From Pseudocolwellia sp. AS88 (lineage in GTDB: Bacteria > Pseudomonadota > Gammaproteobacteria > Enterobacterales > Alteromonadaceae): DNA of 64,000 nucleotides. Positions 9,666 through 15,108 of this stretch are shown here, piece after piece. The translations under genes and the position numbers were made by a program. The stretch's first letter is position 1. Each line of letters starts with the position of its first letter. The stretch covers positions 1-64,000 of the forward strand of contig NZ_JAUPEC010000009.1 in the NCBI RefSeq assembly GCF_030551755.1, given 5' to 3'. Below the pieces are notes generated by a model. It saw only the letters and a list, made by a program, of their open reading frames with translations. It was not told where the DNA came from and made no database searches.

Positions 9666-9699
9666 AAAGCCCTTAAACTATTATTAGTTTAAGGGCTTT
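9666..9699. terminator. Bidirectional terminator
   Basis: A 13-bp perfect stem (AAAGCCCTTAAAC with GTTTAAGGGCTTT), flanked by A and T tracts, between the converging ends of htpX and the cohesin-like gene. Confidence 0.88.
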
Positions 9700-9772: not shown

Positions 9773-10369
9773 TTATGCTTTACGTTGACGAACAACAAGA
9801 GCAATTAAACCTAAAGCAAAAATAGCTAAAGAAGGCATTTCTGGAACAGATGTAGCGCCACCAACAATAACTTCTGTGCCTGATGAAGATACTGAAGAGA
9901 AATCATCACCAAAGTCATCAGCTAAAAGGATATCAGCAAAGTTAAATGTGTTCAGACCATCAGCTAAAACATCAAAACTTACCGAAGCTAAAAGAAAGCT
10001 TGATTGACCATCTTGAGCAGCAAATAAATCATCACTAAAAGCATAACTAATTTCAGACACATACAAATCACCCATACCTAAATCAGCATCAAATTGATCA
10101 CTGGCAAAGGAAGGGTCAACATCTAAAAAGCTACCAAAAGTTGTTGATTGGTAAGCAAGTATAGAGCTATCGAATAATAGGTCGAAATCAAACGAACCTA
10201 ATAGTTTTTGAAAACCTAAAGAGTCTTGTTCAATATCTGAAATTATTACGTTTGCTTGTAAAGTATCACCTACTTGATAGTCAGTATTATCAAGATCGAT
10301 GCTTAATAATGTTGCTTGTGAACTTAAAGAAATAAGTGCTGTTGCGAATAACGCGATTAATTTTTTCAT
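9773..10369 (-). CDS. Cohesin-like surface protein with PEP-CTERM-type tail
   Basis: A 198-residue exported protein. The signal peptide (about 1-19) is followed by a beta-rich domain (about 22-155). Its pattern, VGDTLQANVIIS, GSFDFDLLFDSSIL, then LLASVSFDVL, resembles cohesin domains, which bind dockerins. The C-terminus has V-P-E-M-P-S, a hydrophobic helix and a basic end (RQRKA), as in PEP-CTERM sorting tags recognised by exosortase. The next gene upstream in the same direction ends in a dockerin, suggesting a binding pair. The cohesin call rests on pattern reading, not a profile search. Ribosome site AGGA. Confidence 0.72.
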   Translation of the reverse strand: MKKLIALFATALISLSSQATLLSIDLDNTDYQVGDTLQANVIISDIEQDSLGFQKLLGSFDFDLLFDSSILAYQSTTFGSFLDVDPSFASDQFDADLGMGDLYVSEISYAFSDDLFAAQDGQSSFLLASVSFDVLADGLNTFNFADILLADDFGDDFSSVSSSGTEVIVGGATSVPEMPSLAIFALGLIALVVRQRKA

Positions 10370-10400
10370 TTTATATTCCTAAGGATATTTTGTTATTAAA

Positions 10401-10423
10401 ATCCCCTCTAAAACAGAGGGGAT
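10401..10423 (-). terminator. Hairpin between the nuclease and cohesin-like genes
   Basis: Perfect 8-bp stem ATCCCCTC / GAGGGGAT with a 7-base loop, 15 bases after the nuclease stop codon; on the minus strand it is followed by TTTTAATAA. It may end part of the transcription, setting a ratio between nuclease and the downstream cohesin-like protein, or protect the mRNA 3' end. Confidence 0.6.
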
Positions 10424-10438
10424 ATTTACTTTTATTTT

Positions 10439-13400
10439 TTATTCAGTTGCACAACGGCTACGTGTACATAACGACATTAATGAACGAGCGTCTGATGTAT
10501 TAACAACACCGTCATTATTAAAATCGTTCGCCATATCAGTCGCTTCGCCTTGTCTTACTAACAAGGTGAAAGCTACAACGTCATTACGGTCAATATCACC
10601 ATCAGCATCAAAGTCACCTACTAAAGCTTGTTCTGAGCTAAGCGCTAGTGAAATAACAACTGGATCATGATCAGAAGCACGGTATGCGTCACTGCCATAG
10701 TAACTAGTGATTTGACTATCTGTTTTGAACTCAGTGTTGTAATCAAACGAACCTGGTTCATCAGCATTAATGTGCCATACCGTTGTTTCAAGTACTTGGC
10801 TTGTTAATGTATCTGAAGCAAGAGCGTGATCTAAATAACCTAACTCACCATCAAAGCTATAAGAATAACCATTATGACCTAATGATTTTTCAACTAAGTT
10901 TTGGTAACCGTTATTTTCAATCTCAAGGATAGGGTCTTCTTTAGCATAAGCATTTAAATCACCCATGATGATCACATCAGTATCAGCAGTACCTGTTGGC
11001 TGTGTTGCTAACCAAGCAGTTAATGTAGATGCAGCTTGTGTTCTTAATTCATTCCAACAGCCTTGGCCATCACCTGAATCAGCATTACCACCTGTTGCAC
11101 TGCCACAGCTACCTTTCGATTTAAAGTGGTTAACAGCAACAGTTAATACTTCATTGCTCGCTATTTCTTTAAACGTTTGAACTAATGGTTGACGGTTACT
11201 GGTATTAAATGGAGTTTCTGTTGTTGTTACTGCAGAACCTTCAAGTGATACGTTTGCAGGTTTATAAATTAAACCAACCGCAATAGCATCTGTACCTAAA
11301 GTCGACATGTTAGGGTTAACATAGCTATAAGTACCTTCACCCATTTGTGAGTTTAATTTAGTTACTAAATCACTAATTGCACTGTTCGCTTCATAGCCAT
11401 CGTTTTCGATTTCCATTAAACCAACAATATCAGCGTTTATAGCAACTAATGCGGCAACGATTTTATCACTTTGACGTGTAAATTCTTCTGCAGTATCAGC
11501 ACCACGTTCAGTTGGGAAACCTCCACCTAAACCATCGCCATTAAAGTAGTTTAATACGTTAAAGCTAGCAATTTTTAAAGAACCAACGTTTGAAAACTCT
11601 GGTTCGTTAGTACGATTGTTAGTTGCGATAAATTGAGGAGCACCTACAGGCAATGCACGGTAGCTACCAAAACTGTAATCAATAACAGCAGTTAAATTAC
11701 TCACTGTATCGCCTAAACGTACAGTATTTGTGTAACTTAAAGGAGATGAAGGAAAAGGCACAACCTCAGGGTTTTGCGAGCTATTCATATCATCTAATAT
11801 AAGTCTGTTACGGCTGTTTCTGTCAGTTAAAGCAATGGCTTCAGTACTATCTGCTGCGTAAACATTCGTTGGTTTAAGTAAACGACCATTTGATAAAGTA
11901 AGTTCACCAAAGCGAGTTAATGTGAATGAATCTGATACACTTAAATCATGAGAAACAGTAATTAACATGCCTTCAACTTTTTCCCAATCAGCAAAGCTAT
12001 CTACAGGTAAGCTAATTGATTGAGAAGAAATAGATTCGCCTACACCACAATCAGTGTAAGTAGTAGAAGCTGTTAATTGAGTTCTTGCGAAAGATTCTTC
12101 AACAACACCTTGTACTCGAATTCTGTTACCTACTGTTGGCATTGCCGATGAGTTTTCGTCTAAAACAAATAAACCTTCAGAAGTTTCAGATAATCCATCT
12201 TGGTCTGCGGCTTCTTCTTGAACAAAGTAACCATTTAGTGAGTTATCAACAAGAGTAACAACACCTTCAATAACTTTAGTTTCGCCCGCGAATAGTGAAG
12301 CGTCGCCAGAACCTTGAATTACGTTAATGTAATCGGCTGTGTCACTACATGAACCTAATGGTAATGTAGGTTCAGTTGGTTCTTCAGGATCTGTCGGATC
12401 AGTTGGGTCTGTTACTTCACCTGGAAGTACATTATGTGAACCGATGAAAGTAAAGGTATCACTTGGTTCAGAATCCCACTCAGTATCAACTGAGAATGTA
12501 TCAGTTCTGTCTGAATCACCTTGAGTGATTGAAGATTTTCTGATTAACGTAACGTTACCACCCCAGCTTTCTCTTACACCAAATACACCTACTGAATCGA
12601 TAATATTATCGCCATTAGTTAATTCAATGTAATCATCACCGTTAAAGTTAGCAGCACCAGTAAATACATCTATTTTACTTGCTAACTCTTCAGTCGCTTG
12701 GCTGTTACCTAAAACGAGTACATCACCAGAAGCTAACTCACCTGTTAAACTAACAGTGGTTGATGGCGTTACACTACCATTTGAATACAGTTTAAATTCG
12801 TAACCAGTTAAATCGATTGTTGTTAGTGTTGGATTGTAAATTTCAACAGCTTTGTTGAAGCTACTACCTTCTACGTATTCAGAAATGAATAAATCGGCAC
12901 CACCTGGAGCTGGGTCGGTAGGCTCTGGATCTGTTGGTTCTGGTTCAGGATCTGTTGGCTCTGTTACTTCTTCGTCAGTACAACTTTGGGTATAAATTTT
13001 TGAAATCCATTCTGGATGATCGATAAATGGGTTTCTGTTGCCTTGGAATTCGTAAATTCGGTTGTTGCGTTCTTGTTCAAACTCATCAACAGGATCACTT
13101 TCATTCCAGCTTAGTAAAGCACATAGCTTACCTAAGTTTGCTTCACCAGTAGAGGTTAGTCTATTAACTACTTCTAAATCAGGTGTTCCAGAGTCATTAC
13201 CTTGGTAACGAGTATCCATATAGAAAACGATACGTGCTACATCACCTTTAACAGCATCACGTGGTTCAAAAGAATCACTGTCTACTCTGTTTTCCGGTGC
13301 TTCAGCTAAAGCACCGTCACTAAAGTCAAAGTCTAAGTTACCGCGAGAAGAGTTAACTGAAATATCGGTAGGACGTAAATGATGGATATCTGTATAAGCT

Positions 13401-14479
13401 TCAGCACTTGTTTCAGGGAAACCATGGCTTTTAGCCCAAACGTGCTCACGGTTCCAGTTATCTTGATCTGAAGATTGTGAACCACTACCATTTGAAAACT
13501 TAGCTAGTGAAATACCACGGTAGAATAAAATAACGTTTTCACTGTTTAATGGATCTTCATCAGTTTGTGTTAATGCAGTCCATGCTTCTGAATAGGTAAG
13601 ATTTTTGTGATTATCTGAAATTGCAGCAGTAATTCTTTCTTTAATAATTTCTTGTGATTGTTCAGAGTCAACAGCATCAAATACATGAGCATAATATGCA
13701 GAATCATCAAAAGCTGAAGCATCTGCTATTTTCTCTAAATCAGGACAGTTAAAACAAGCATTAGTAATAATGTCTGAATCTGGAGTCTCATCAACTTCGC
13801 CTGTTCCGTCATCTATACCATCGTCACCGTCTTCACTTCCATCGCTATCACCCTGAGAAGTTACTAGCACATCATCTAATCTGATGTACTCAGAACCTGC
13901 ACCATTTTGCATCGCAACTTTAATAACTAAAGAAGAACCTTCAGCAATATCGGCTTCTACAGTTGTAGAAGTAAAATCGTCAATTAATGTATGTTCCGTG
14001 CTACCTAAACCTTGCCAGTTAGTCACTTGAACAAATGCGCCGCCATCTACAGAGTAATATAAGTCAAAAAAGTCATCTGCTTCGTGTGTTCCATCTTCTT
14101 CAGCTAAAACAGATAATTTAATATCCGTTTTATTTGAAATATCAATTGTTTCAGAAATCCATTCTACAACACCGTCAACATCTCTAGCTTCCATAACTGC
14201 ATTGGTTACTTTAAACCAATCAGAAGTTGCCGTTAATGATGCATTACTAATATCGATAGACCAACGATCAACGCCAGACATATCAATAGTAGAATTAACA
14301 GCACCTTTGTTATCTAATGCTGCATCATTAAAGTTTTCGCTCCATAGGTCTTCTGCGAAAGCAGATGAACTAATTAATAACGCAGACGATATACATAAAG
14401 CGACTTTACTTTTTGTATGCATAAACCGAGTTGATCTTGGTACTAATGTATCGACTGTAACAGTCTTTTTCTTAAACAT
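10439..14479 (-). CDS. Secreted double nuclease (EndA + ExeM-like) with dockerin
   Basis: A 1346-residue exported protein. After a long signal region (about 1-42) and a beta-sandwich-like segment come: an endonuclease I domain (about 245-490) with NREHVWAKSHGFP and HHLRPTD; PTDPEP linkers; a lamin-tail domain (about 520-670); an ExeM-type OB-like region (about 700-820); an endonuclease/exonuclease/phosphatase domain (about 965-1275) with ASFNVLNYF, ENDGY and a terminal SDHDPV; and a C-terminal dockerin (about 1280-1340) with two calcium repeats (D-F-D-A-D-G-D-I-D and D-F-N-N-D-G-V-V-N). It likely degrades extracellular DNA for nutrients or biofilm turnover. The ATG at 14479 has a GGAGT site; the TTG 12 bases upstream overlaps that site. 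Confidence 0.9.
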   Translation of the reverse strand: MFKKKTVTVDTLVPRSTRFMHTKSKVALCISSALLISSSAFAEDLWSENFNDAALDNKGAVNSTIDMSGVDRWSIDISNASLTATSDWFKVTNAVMEARDVDGVVEWISETIDISNKTDIKLSVLAEEDGTHEADDFFDLYYSVDGGAFVQVTNWQGLGSTEHTLIDDFTSTTVEADIAEGSSLVIKVAMQNGAGSEYIRLDDVLVTSQGDSDGSEDGDDGIDDGTGEVDETPDSDIITNACFNCPDLEKIADASAFDDSAYYAHVFDAVDSEQSQEIIKERITAAISDNHKNLTYSEAWTALTQTDEDPLNSENVILFYRGISLAKFSNGSGSQSSDQDNWNREHVWAKSHGFPETSAEAYTDIHHLRPTDISVNSSRGNLDFDFSDGALAEAPENRVDSDSFEPRDAVKGDVARIVFYMDTRYQGNDSGTPDLEVVNRLTSTGEANLGKLCALLSWNESDPVDEFEQERNNRIYEFQGNRNPFIDHPEWISKIYTQSCTDEEVTEPTDPEPEPTDPEPTDPAPGGADLFISEYVEGSSFNKAVEIYNPTLTTIDLTGYEFKLYSNGSVTPSTTVSLTGELASGDVLVLGNSQATEELASKIDVFTGAANFNGDDYIELTNGDNIIDSVGVFGVRESWGGNVTLIRKSSITQGDSDRTDTFSVDTEWDSEPSDTFTFIGSHNVLPGEVTDPTDPTDPEEPTEPTLPLGSCSDTADYINVIQGSGDASLFAGETKVIEGVVTLVDNSLNGYFVQEEAADQDGLSETSEGLFVLDENSSAMPTVGNRIRVQGVVEESFARTQLTASTTYTDCGVGESISSQSISLPVDSFADWEKVEGMLITVSHDLSVSDSFTLTRFGELTLSNGRLLKPTNVYAADSTEAIALTDRNSRNRLILDDMNSSQNPEVVPFPSSPLSYTNTVRLGDTVSNLTAVIDYSFGSYRALPVGAPQFIATNNRTNEPEFSNVGSLKIASFNVLNYFNGDGLGGGFPTERGADTAEEFTRQSDKIVAALVAINADIVGLMEIENDGYEANSAISDLVTKLNSQMGEGTYSYVNPNMSTLGTDAIAVGLIYKPANVSLEGSAVTTTETPFNTSNRQPLVQTFKEIASNEVLTVAVNHFKSKGSCGSATGGNADSGDGQGCWNELRTQAASTLTAWLATQPTGTADTDVIIMGDLNAYAKEDPILEIENNGYQNLVEKSLGHNGYSYSFDGELGYLDHALASDTLTSQVLETTVWHINADEPGSFDYNTEFKTDSQITSYYGSDAYRASDHDPVVISLALSSEQALVGDFDADGDIDRNDVVAFTLLVRQGEATDMANDFNNDGVVNTSDARSLMSLCTRSRCATE

Positions 14480-15108
14480 TGAACACTCCAAATGATAACT
14501 TAATTAAAATAAAACCAGGTATGAAAACAAACTCCATATTGATGTAAATAATGACGTAAAATTGTTACATTAATGTTATTGATATATTACACAATACAAA
14601 AACCTGACTATATAGTCTACTTTATAATTGTATGCAGTCTTTATGTCACATGAATAATTTTCATCTAACTAACCAAATAGACAAAAAATAAAAACTGTAT
14701 AAAATTAAAACAAAACCCCGCTAAGCCATACCACGCATAGCTTACCGAGACGCACACTTTGGAAGGTCAAAAAAACTCAGAGTTGAGAAAGTAATAGGCA
14801 TAAAAAAGCCAGCTACTGATATAGCTGGCTATTAGCAATAAAATGCAGAAAATACGTAAAACAAAAATGTTAACAAGTATTTTACTTTGCACAATTGAAT
14901 TATTTACCTTTAAATCACAATAATCGATTTTTGACTAATGAATGTATTATGATCAGTTAGGGATTTTACATGAGAACATAATGTAGGGATGATAAAATCT
15001 ATGTGGTTAACAAGGATTTTTTATTGCAGATATAAACCAGATACCTGCATCCTTGCAAGTAAACGCTTAAAGCTAATTATAAAGTAAAATAGCTTATCTC
15101 AAATGAGA
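14480..15108. other. Gene-free region upstream of the nuclease gene
   Basis: About 630 AT-rich bases hold the nuclease leader and promoter and one hairpin (14807-14830, listed separately). A short palindrome ACTATATAGT lies near 14605-14615. I see no convincing coding frame, RNA gene or repeat, and no promoter that I would place with confidence. Confidence 0.5.
14807..14830 (-). terminator. Terminator hairpin
   Basis: Perfect 9-bp stem AGCCAGCTA / TAGCTGGCT with a 6-base loop; on the minus strand it is followed by TTTTTTA. It lies 280 bases behind the YdjA-like gene, so that transcript has a long 3' end or an unseen small RNA ends here. Confidence 0.75.

Follow-up and report, generated by a model that had tools for sequence, protein, structure and literature searches.

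How might a secreted nuclease that ends in a dockerin be kept near the cell that makes it? This question is raised by a pair of genes in Pseudocolwellia sp. AS88, located on a stretch of 64,000 nucleotides (contig NZ_JAUPEC010000009.1, positions 1 to 64,000; this whole stretch is called the window). A first-pass annotation, made from the letters of the DNA, had described a small cohesin-like protein with a sorting tail beside a dockerin-tailed nuclease and had suggested that the two might bind each other. The analysis presented here points to a two-part, one-to-one surface anchor, in which an exosortase-sorted cohesin would hold a dockerin-tailed cargo in place of tails such as GlyGly-CTERM. 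The probability of this reading is put at about 0.82. The elements of the locus are as follows (ORF, open reading frame; AF2, AlphaFold2).

9773..10369, minus strand: secreted protein of 198 aa with a signal peptide, one cohesin domain and a PEP-CTERM-type sorting tail (ORF, Pfam, profile, fold)
9854..10315, minus strand: cohesin domain, residues 19-172 (AF2 pLDDT 93.6, pTM 0.88; Z 16.8 to 6kgc_A)
9776..9853, minus strand: PEP-CTERM-type tail with VPEMPS, a hydrophobic stretch and RQRK (sequence; PF07589 13.5-15.3 bits)
10439..14476, minus strand: secreted double nuclease of 1345 aa with a C-terminal dockerin (ORF, Pfam, NF033681)
13010..13645, minus strand: Endonuclease I (EndA-like) domain, residues 278-489 (PF04231 E 1.1e-42)
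12584..12907, minus strand: lamin-tail domain, residues 524-631 (PF00932 E 3e-14)
10640..12271, minus strand: ExeM/NucH extracellular endonuclease domain, residues 736-1279 (NF033681 662.8 bits, cut-off 300)
10442..10618, minus strand: dockerin with two calcium-loop repeats and a C-x4-C tail (motif, profile A2, model fold)
10401..10423, minus strand: hairpin between the nuclease and cohesin genes (weak T-run on the minus strand)
9666..9699, minus strand: strong terminator-like hairpin directly after the cohesin gene (15 pairs and a T-run)

Pfam alone is insufficient to settle the identities of these domains. The first-pass annotation had looked to Pfam Cohesin and Dockerin_1 for confirmation; both matches are present, yet both fall below the curated cut-offs, with single-sequence scores of 20.8 bits for Cohesin (cut-off 24.1; residues 24-92), 10.2 for Dockerin_1 (22.9) and, likewise too low, 13.5 for PEP-CTERM (20.7). 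A phmmer search of the Protein Data Bank (PDB) with the window cohesin as a single sequence gave no match. The identities are settled by stronger profile and fold tests. Profile A1 was built from 16 related cohesins with their tails removed, and profile A2 from 16 dockerin ends. Loci L040 and L041, which had been matched mainly via the tail (partial coverage) and whose neighbours were dockerin-free by motif scan, were excluded from A1, as was L036, whose neighbour was also dockerin-free by motif and was later found by A2 to carry an N-terminal dockerin. Against the PDB, A1 matches 3l8q best (E 2.8e-8), and cohesin or scaffoldin chains make up 13 of its 14 matches at E<=10. The top match of A2 is the cellulosomal dockerin 2y3n_B (E 7.3e-12), and EF-hand proteins such as calmodulin score lower down. 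In a single solved complex, 2y3n, each of the two chains is matched by one of the profiles (cohesin chain E 0.0058).

The folds agree with the profiles. AlphaFold, run on 14 sequences from the window and the named loci, gave a model of the window cohesin with a pLDDT of 93.6 and a pTM of 0.88, and its nearest solved structure is the cohesin 6kgc_A (Z 16.8, 2.3 Å over 137 residues). By title, the top 42 structure rows (Z 16.8-13.5) are cohesin modules or cohesin-dockerin or cellulosomal complexes, and the fold matches cover type I and type II. The fold is thus present in residues 22-155, where the first-pass annotation had expected it. The dockerin model is weaker (pLDDT 84.3); its best rows are dockerins, with Z 6.9 to 2vn5_D (2.4 Å over 54 residues), and Foldseek with this small model gave no match at E<=0.001, although its best-ranked rows were nonetheless dockerins. 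Ten positions, eight aspartates and the two cysteines of C-x4-C, are invariant in 17 aligned nuclease dockerins, an alignment that leaves out L173, L180 and L183, the three named nuclease dockerins without C-x4-C. Several partner dockerins exceed the Pfam cut-off, whereas the window dockerin is below it. Both window modules are genuine members of the cohesin and dockerin families, with the dockerin fold less strongly supported. The sorting tail also holds: the tripartite arrangement of motif, hydrophobic stretch and basic end is present, by sequence, on the signal-peptide-bearing window cohesin. Tails of related cohesin proteins exceed the PEP-CTERM cut-off, and that of the window, with the variant motif PEMPS, reaches 13.5-15.3 bits (PF07589).

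Strong support for a functional pair comes from gene linkage across the family. In the window, the nuclease gene (10439-14476) precedes the cohesin gene (9773-10369) on the same, minus strand, and 69 bp separate them, in agreement with the adjacency described earlier. In an initial search, the 198-aa cohesin protein was matched in 13 of 59 genomes, including its own. Profiles A1 and A2 were then both run on one set of 196 family genomes, with 150 matches listed for each; the 16 source loci of A1 are themselves among its 150. Cohesins were detected in 87 of the 196 genomes (29 of 52 genera) and dockerins in 115. A dockerin is present in 87/87 genomes with a cohesin versus 28/109 of the others, although these genome counts are not phylogenetically independent. 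A listed dockerin lies within 3 kb of 107 of the 150 listed cohesins, and in all 107 it is on the same strand and upstream, with a median gap of 93 bp and a largest gap of 962. Among the remaining 43, 40 loci were inspected and 35 have a dockerin gene directly adjacent; six more (L033, L164, L165, L277, L278, L279) were settled as paired by extended or further loci. A dockerin gene thus adjoins 148 of the 150 listed cohesins, a near-obligate linkage, and the gene pair that the first-pass annotation proposed to look for in relatives is common there. At L033, one small ORF lies between the cohesin and dockerin genes. A misread beta-sandwich or a chance adjacency is ruled out by the fold, the profile matches and this family-wide linkage.

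The linkage belongs to the cohesin and not to the tail. As a control, 146 PEP-CTERM matches in eight genomes were split by cohesin content. A listed dockerin lies within 2.5 kb of 15 of the 21 matches that bear a cohesin, or 19 of 21 when five extra dockerins known from inspected loci are included; these five lie near cohesins and hence favour the cohesin side. The corresponding count for matches without a cohesin is 1/125, which rules out the idea that any PEP-CTERM protein adjoins a dockerin.

The arrangement of the two genes is also regular. After the removal of duplicate loci (L036/L060/L079, which overlap, and L055/L165), 126 gene-pair records were reduced to 118 pairs; L034 is absent from these scripted pairs, apparently owing to a dockerin ORF without an early ATG, and its dockerin is among the A2 matches listed. 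Geometry was counted on 116 close records, which hold a few duplicate loci. A C-terminal dockerin in the gene just upstream was found in 100, an N-terminal dockerin in the gene just downstream in eight, an internal dockerin upstream in six and a C-terminal dockerin downstream in two. From these counts, it follows that, for N-terminal and C-terminal dockerins alike, the cargo gene usually has its dockerin-coding end next to the cohesin gene. A rule-based sorting tail was found in 115 of the 116 cohesins. At L049, L050, L054, L060, L067, L079 and L263, the gene after the cohesin gene encodes an N-terminal dockerin (residues about 26-90); at L263, this is a very large ORF that is RHS-like by eye. 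At L033, L053, L068 and L165, a large downstream gene ends in a dockerin, beyond the distance limit of the geometry count.

The cargo is diverse. By similarity without the dockerin, the 118 pairs fall into 23 sequence groups, which are BLAST clusters and no proof of non-homology (the small group L137 also has an Exo_endo_phos domain); the largest is the ExeM-type nuclease group, with 43. Pfam matches of the group representatives include M9 collagenase, M43 and M4 metalloproteases, porphyranase domains, a glucuronyl esterase with CBM9, a purple-acid-phosphatase-like protein, BNR4, GH141-like/CBM35 and IgGFc-binding-like proteins, while representative L050 has no Pfam match. The genome of the window carries a second pair, L044, with an 807-aa dockerin protein and a 189-aa cohesin whose PEP-CTERM tail scores above the cut-off. 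The same genome encodes a third dockerin protein, L043; 265 bp separate its end from the edge of the contig, which puts the neighbouring gene out of view. A Pfam dockerin scan of this genome also gave low-scoring partial matches. None of the 118 paired cohesin proteins has a second A1 match, and their median length is 192.5 aa. A cellulosome proper is ruled out by this lack of a multi-cohesin scaffoldin. The phrase used in the first-pass annotation, a one-enzyme nuclease version of a cellulosome, is therefore too narrow, given the 23 partner groups, the second pair in the same genome and the absence of a multi-cohesin scaffold.

The nuclease itself gives a natural comparison. Among the best 80 of 559 named ExeM/NucH loci, 19 have a dockerin, and a cohesin accompanies 13 of these 19 versus none of the 61 dockerin-free loci. 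The named nuclease pairs come from Colwellia, Thalassotalea, Paraglaciecola, Bowmanella, Alteromonas, another Alteromonadaceae isolate and three gammaproteobacterial metagenome-assembled genomes. Six Pseudoalteromonas nuclease loci end instead, by eye, in a tail of Ser-Gly-Ser, a hydrophobic stretch and Arg/Lys. From the loci with a dockerin and cohesin and their tail-bearing relatives, the pair can be regarded as a sorting tail that may have been split into two proteins.

If the two modules fit each other, their sequences might be expected to change together, and overall they do. Between pairs from different cargo groups, cohesin similarity and dockerin similarity correlate with r 0.45, whereas 1000 within-group permutations average 0.23 and never exceed 0.33. 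For 46 of the 118 pairs, the cohesin beside the most similar other-group dockerin ranks in the top five by similarity; 500 permutations gave 6.2 such pairs on average and at most 15. Dockerins with C-x4-C occur in 102 of the 118 pairs and those without it in 16; for these 16, the nearest other-group cohesin shares the dockerin type in 11, a number not reached in 5000 shuffles (mean 2.0, at most 10), and when the shuffling is performed within groups, the mean is 4.7 and 11 is reached in 3 of 5000. Among the nucleases, cohesins are on average more similar inside the dockerin types (0.148 and 0.222) than between them (0.072). The socket therefore tends to match the plug and not the enzyme, although some pairs, that of the window among them, depart from this trend. 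These tests take no account of the tree, and the pairs are not phylogenetically independent. Taken together, the comparative evidence strongly supports the two window proteins being partners.

The route to the surface can be outlined from the tail. The window's own genome has one exosortase (G000:C34:63670-64407, E 1.1e-42; TIGR02602 197 bits, cut-off 105.6). The search for an exosortase in relatives, also proposed in the first-pass annotation, was equally positive: in the 196 genomes, one is present in 86 of the 87 with a cohesin versus 64 of the 109 others. According to the proposed mechanism, the cargo, here the EndA and ExeM double nuclease, would be exported by its own signal peptide and would carry at one of its ends a dockerin that binds calcium. 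Its counterpart, encoded by the neighbouring gene, would be a lone cohesin that bears a PEP-CTERM-type tail and is exported on its own. The exosortase of the cell would act on this tailed protein; exosortases are believed to direct proteins of this kind to the outer surface or to exopolysaccharide. The cohesin would then bind the dockerin, presumably in a calcium-dependent manner, and keep the nuclease near the cell, so that the pair would replace in trans the GlyGly-CTERM tail present at the C-terminus of this nuclease in some other genera.

The place where the cohesin would come to rest after processing leaves room for a different outcome. Attachment of the cohesin to the matrix or its release is possible: the pair would bind, exosortase processing would free the cohesin into the exopolysaccharide matrix or the medium, and enzymes would be loaded there and not on the cell. 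The available part of the founding paper links PEP-CTERM sorting to exopolysaccharide loci and dates from a time when localisation was not known (PMC1569441), and a PEP-CTERM gene is reported, in the available text, to be involved in floc formation (PMC9850573). For Shewanella ExeM, which has a Gly-Gly C-terminal anchor, the sections available place the enzyme in the membrane fraction and not in the medium, which suggests that proximity to the cell is useful; this is not decisive, as deletion of the anchor did not abolish the location (PMC6085458). Release into the matrix is considered conceivable at somewhat less than even odds, and the surface anchor is preferred.

Several observations weigh against the surface anchor or its one-to-one character. 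Two listed cohesins, L070 and L084, are without a dockerin neighbour; the neighbour of L070 is porphyranase-like and has no dockerin match, a verdict that hinges on profile sensitivity. Conversely, 40 of the 150 listed dockerins have no listed cohesin within 3 kb, and of 20 such loci inspected, 12 are without a cohesin. The other inspected loci include four (L087, L088, L095, L099) with a cohesin on the other side or shared between two dockerin genes, one cohesin with a weaker score (L090), one candidate not detected by the profile (L094), one wrong stretch holding a paired dockerin (L096) and one that gave no scored dockerin ORF (L103). Of the 19 named nuclease dockerins, six have no adjacent detected cohesin. 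Some dockerins may therefore bind other partners, or several may use one cohesin. Co-variation is absent from the window pair (the cohesin of its most similar other-group dockerin ranks 73 of 75); across all 118 pairs, 21 fall in the lower half of the ranking, and nucleases (43 pairs) account for 11 of these. The window tail reads PEMPS and scores below the Pfam cut-off; the 64 genomes with an exosortase and no cohesin indicate that this enzyme also acts on other proteins. For the proteins of the pair, no results on binding, on localisation or on the exosortase were found.

Part of this evidence would fit a pooled scaffold, in which any dockerin of the cell uses any cohesin and adjacency reflects regulation only. 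Dockerins without a detected neighbouring cohesin, the single cohesin between two dockerin genes at L095 and at L099, and the lack of cross-group co-variation in the window pair all lean that way. Such pooling is nevertheless unlikely: seen from the cohesin side, the linkage is close to 1:1, and the cohesin type follows the dockerin type across groups beyond the shuffles, which suggests pair specificity. A further objection is that co-variation would also arise without binding if the two genes are simply inherited together as one operon. Carried to its end, this objection leads to modules that are homologous to cohesin and dockerin yet do not bind, a surface beta-sandwich whose gene pair spreads as a neutral hitch-hiking cassette. 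Binding is inferred here, and the single-sequence Pfam scores lie under the cut-off; this explanation could accommodate both. However, linkage in 148 of 150 cases, 23 partner groups and both gene orders are hard to explain without a functional pair, and A1 and A2 match both chains of the solved complex 2y3n; a non-binding cassette is regarded as highly improbable. The one-to-one anchor remains the best explanation of the whole.

Some of the dockerin loci are worth describing in their own right. Dockerin-tailed exoproteins with no adjacent cohesin detected were seen at L086, L089, L091, L092, L097, L098, L102 and L104, of which L086, L091 and L102 lie in similar gene neighbourhoods. At L095:4353-13456 and L099:1772-10880, the single cohesin gene stands between two large same-strand dockerin-tailed genes, possibly a two-cargo, one-socket unit. 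A stretch of 13 kb at L087:2985-16163 encodes four dockerin-tailed proteins together with two or more small, secreted ones that have PEP-CTERM-like tails. Small secreted proteins with such tails, missed by A1, also stand beside dockerin genes at L094:3933-4484 and L183:7242-8042 (Methylomonas methanica) and are possibly divergent cohesins.

The pair extends beyond the family. A1 found matches in 13 genomes from outside the family in a 274-genome class sample and in two further genomes of a 249-genome phylum sample, and 14 loci from the former and two from the latter were inspected. Of the 12 matches at E<=1e-6, 10 adjoin a dockerin gene, including L270, which is paired by coordinates (its cohesin ORF was not called), and L268, which has an antisense ORF between the two genes. 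The exceptions are L267, which is unpaired, and L272, on a 3-kb contig without a dockerin match. Four weaker matches, L273-L276, have other architectures and no adjacent dockerin. At L272, L273 and L276, the A1 matches differ in architecture and lie in surface proteins that look repetitive or inside a single long ORF.

How does this system compare with those already known? The modules are homologous to those of the clostridial cellulosome, and the best profile matches are ScaB-type scaffoldin cohesins and the dockerin of the type II complex 2y3n. The differences are the lack of a multi-cohesin scaffoldin (0/118), the Gram-negative host, the exosortase-type tail and an identified cargo that mostly does not consist of cellulases. 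The closest functional analogues are the single-cohesin anchors of Gram-positives, such as ScaE of Ruminococcus flavefaciens and OlpA/OlpC of C. thermocellum, in which one cohesin is joined to a surface-anchoring signal (sortase/LPXTG or SLH) and binds a dockerin; the window cohesin has an exosortase/PEP-CTERM tail instead. To our knowledge, these anchors do not occur as a repeated two-gene unit with each enzyme. Enzymes of C. perfringens also carry non-cellulosomal cohesin and dockerin modules, and structures of these modules and of ScaE and OlpA/OlpC appear among the fold-search matches.

Like the C. perfringens modules, the planctosome, a non-cellulosomal complex proposed in Planctomycetes with large multidomain anchor and adaptor proteins (PMC6461901), and the modules noted in anaerobic methanotrophic (ANME) archaea (PMC5244752, PMC9012536) place cohesin-dockerin outside cellulose degradation, with a proposed role in the assembly of extracellular proteins. 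As far as the available portions go, the planctosome and ANME accounts describe no exosortase-tailed single cohesin encoded beside each cargo. GlyGly-type tails occur on extracellular nucleases (PMC3237569), and ExeM/NucH of Shewanella is of the same catalytic family as the window nuclease; in the parts of both papers that were at hand, the Shewanella enzyme carries the sorting tail itself, whereas here the tail is on a separate protein and the enzyme has a dockerin (PMC6085458, PMC3237569).

In a literature search with most subscription papers outside its coverage, no paper was found that joins PEP-CTERM with cohesin or dockerin. The work of Peer et al. 2009 is said by citing papers to be a survey of non-cellulosomal modules and may have noted such neighbours. 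Exosortase and dockerin occurred together in an ANME review, the available text of which also states that it is not known what cohesin and dockerin modules do outside the cellulosome (PMC5244752). What appears to be new is the non-cellulosomal, exosortase-linked, one-to-one anchor, while cohesin-dockerin outside cellulosomes and single-cohesin Gram-positive anchors were already known.

A wider reading is on balance favoured, namely, a widespread, previously unrecognised two-component surface display in Gram-negatives. It would consist of orthogonal cohesin(PEP-CTERM)/dockerin pairs, with as many as five in one genome, whose cassettes would move between unrelated exoenzymes at either cargo end, replacing covalent-type sorting tails and giving each enzyme a detachable, calcium-dependent anchor. 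Two poorly explained matters, the non-cellulosomal modules and the purpose of many PEP-CTERM/exosortase proteins, would thereby be linked in a form that is testable with one small pair. If this is true, marine bacteria can keep DNases, collagenases and algal-polysaccharide enzymes at the cell via one common sorting route, and ready-made, possibly orthogonal binding pairs become available for enzyme display in Gram-negative bacteria.

Some details of the window locus itself complete the picture. The nuclease gene starts with ATG, and a TTG further upstream at 14491 is also possible. The full-length ExeM GlyGly-CTERM model NF033680 is not reached by the window nuclease (449 bits versus a cut-off of 1300), and the protein ends in the dockerin. 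One secreted polypeptide combines two different nuclease domains, the EndA-like domain at 13010-13645 and the ExeM/EEP domain at 10640-12271. Because of the spacing of 69 bp, the terminator-like hairpin after the cohesin gene and the weaker hairpin between the genes, nuclease and cohesin probably form one transcription unit, and the intergenic hairpin (10401-10423) may possibly tune the ratio of nuclease to cohesin.

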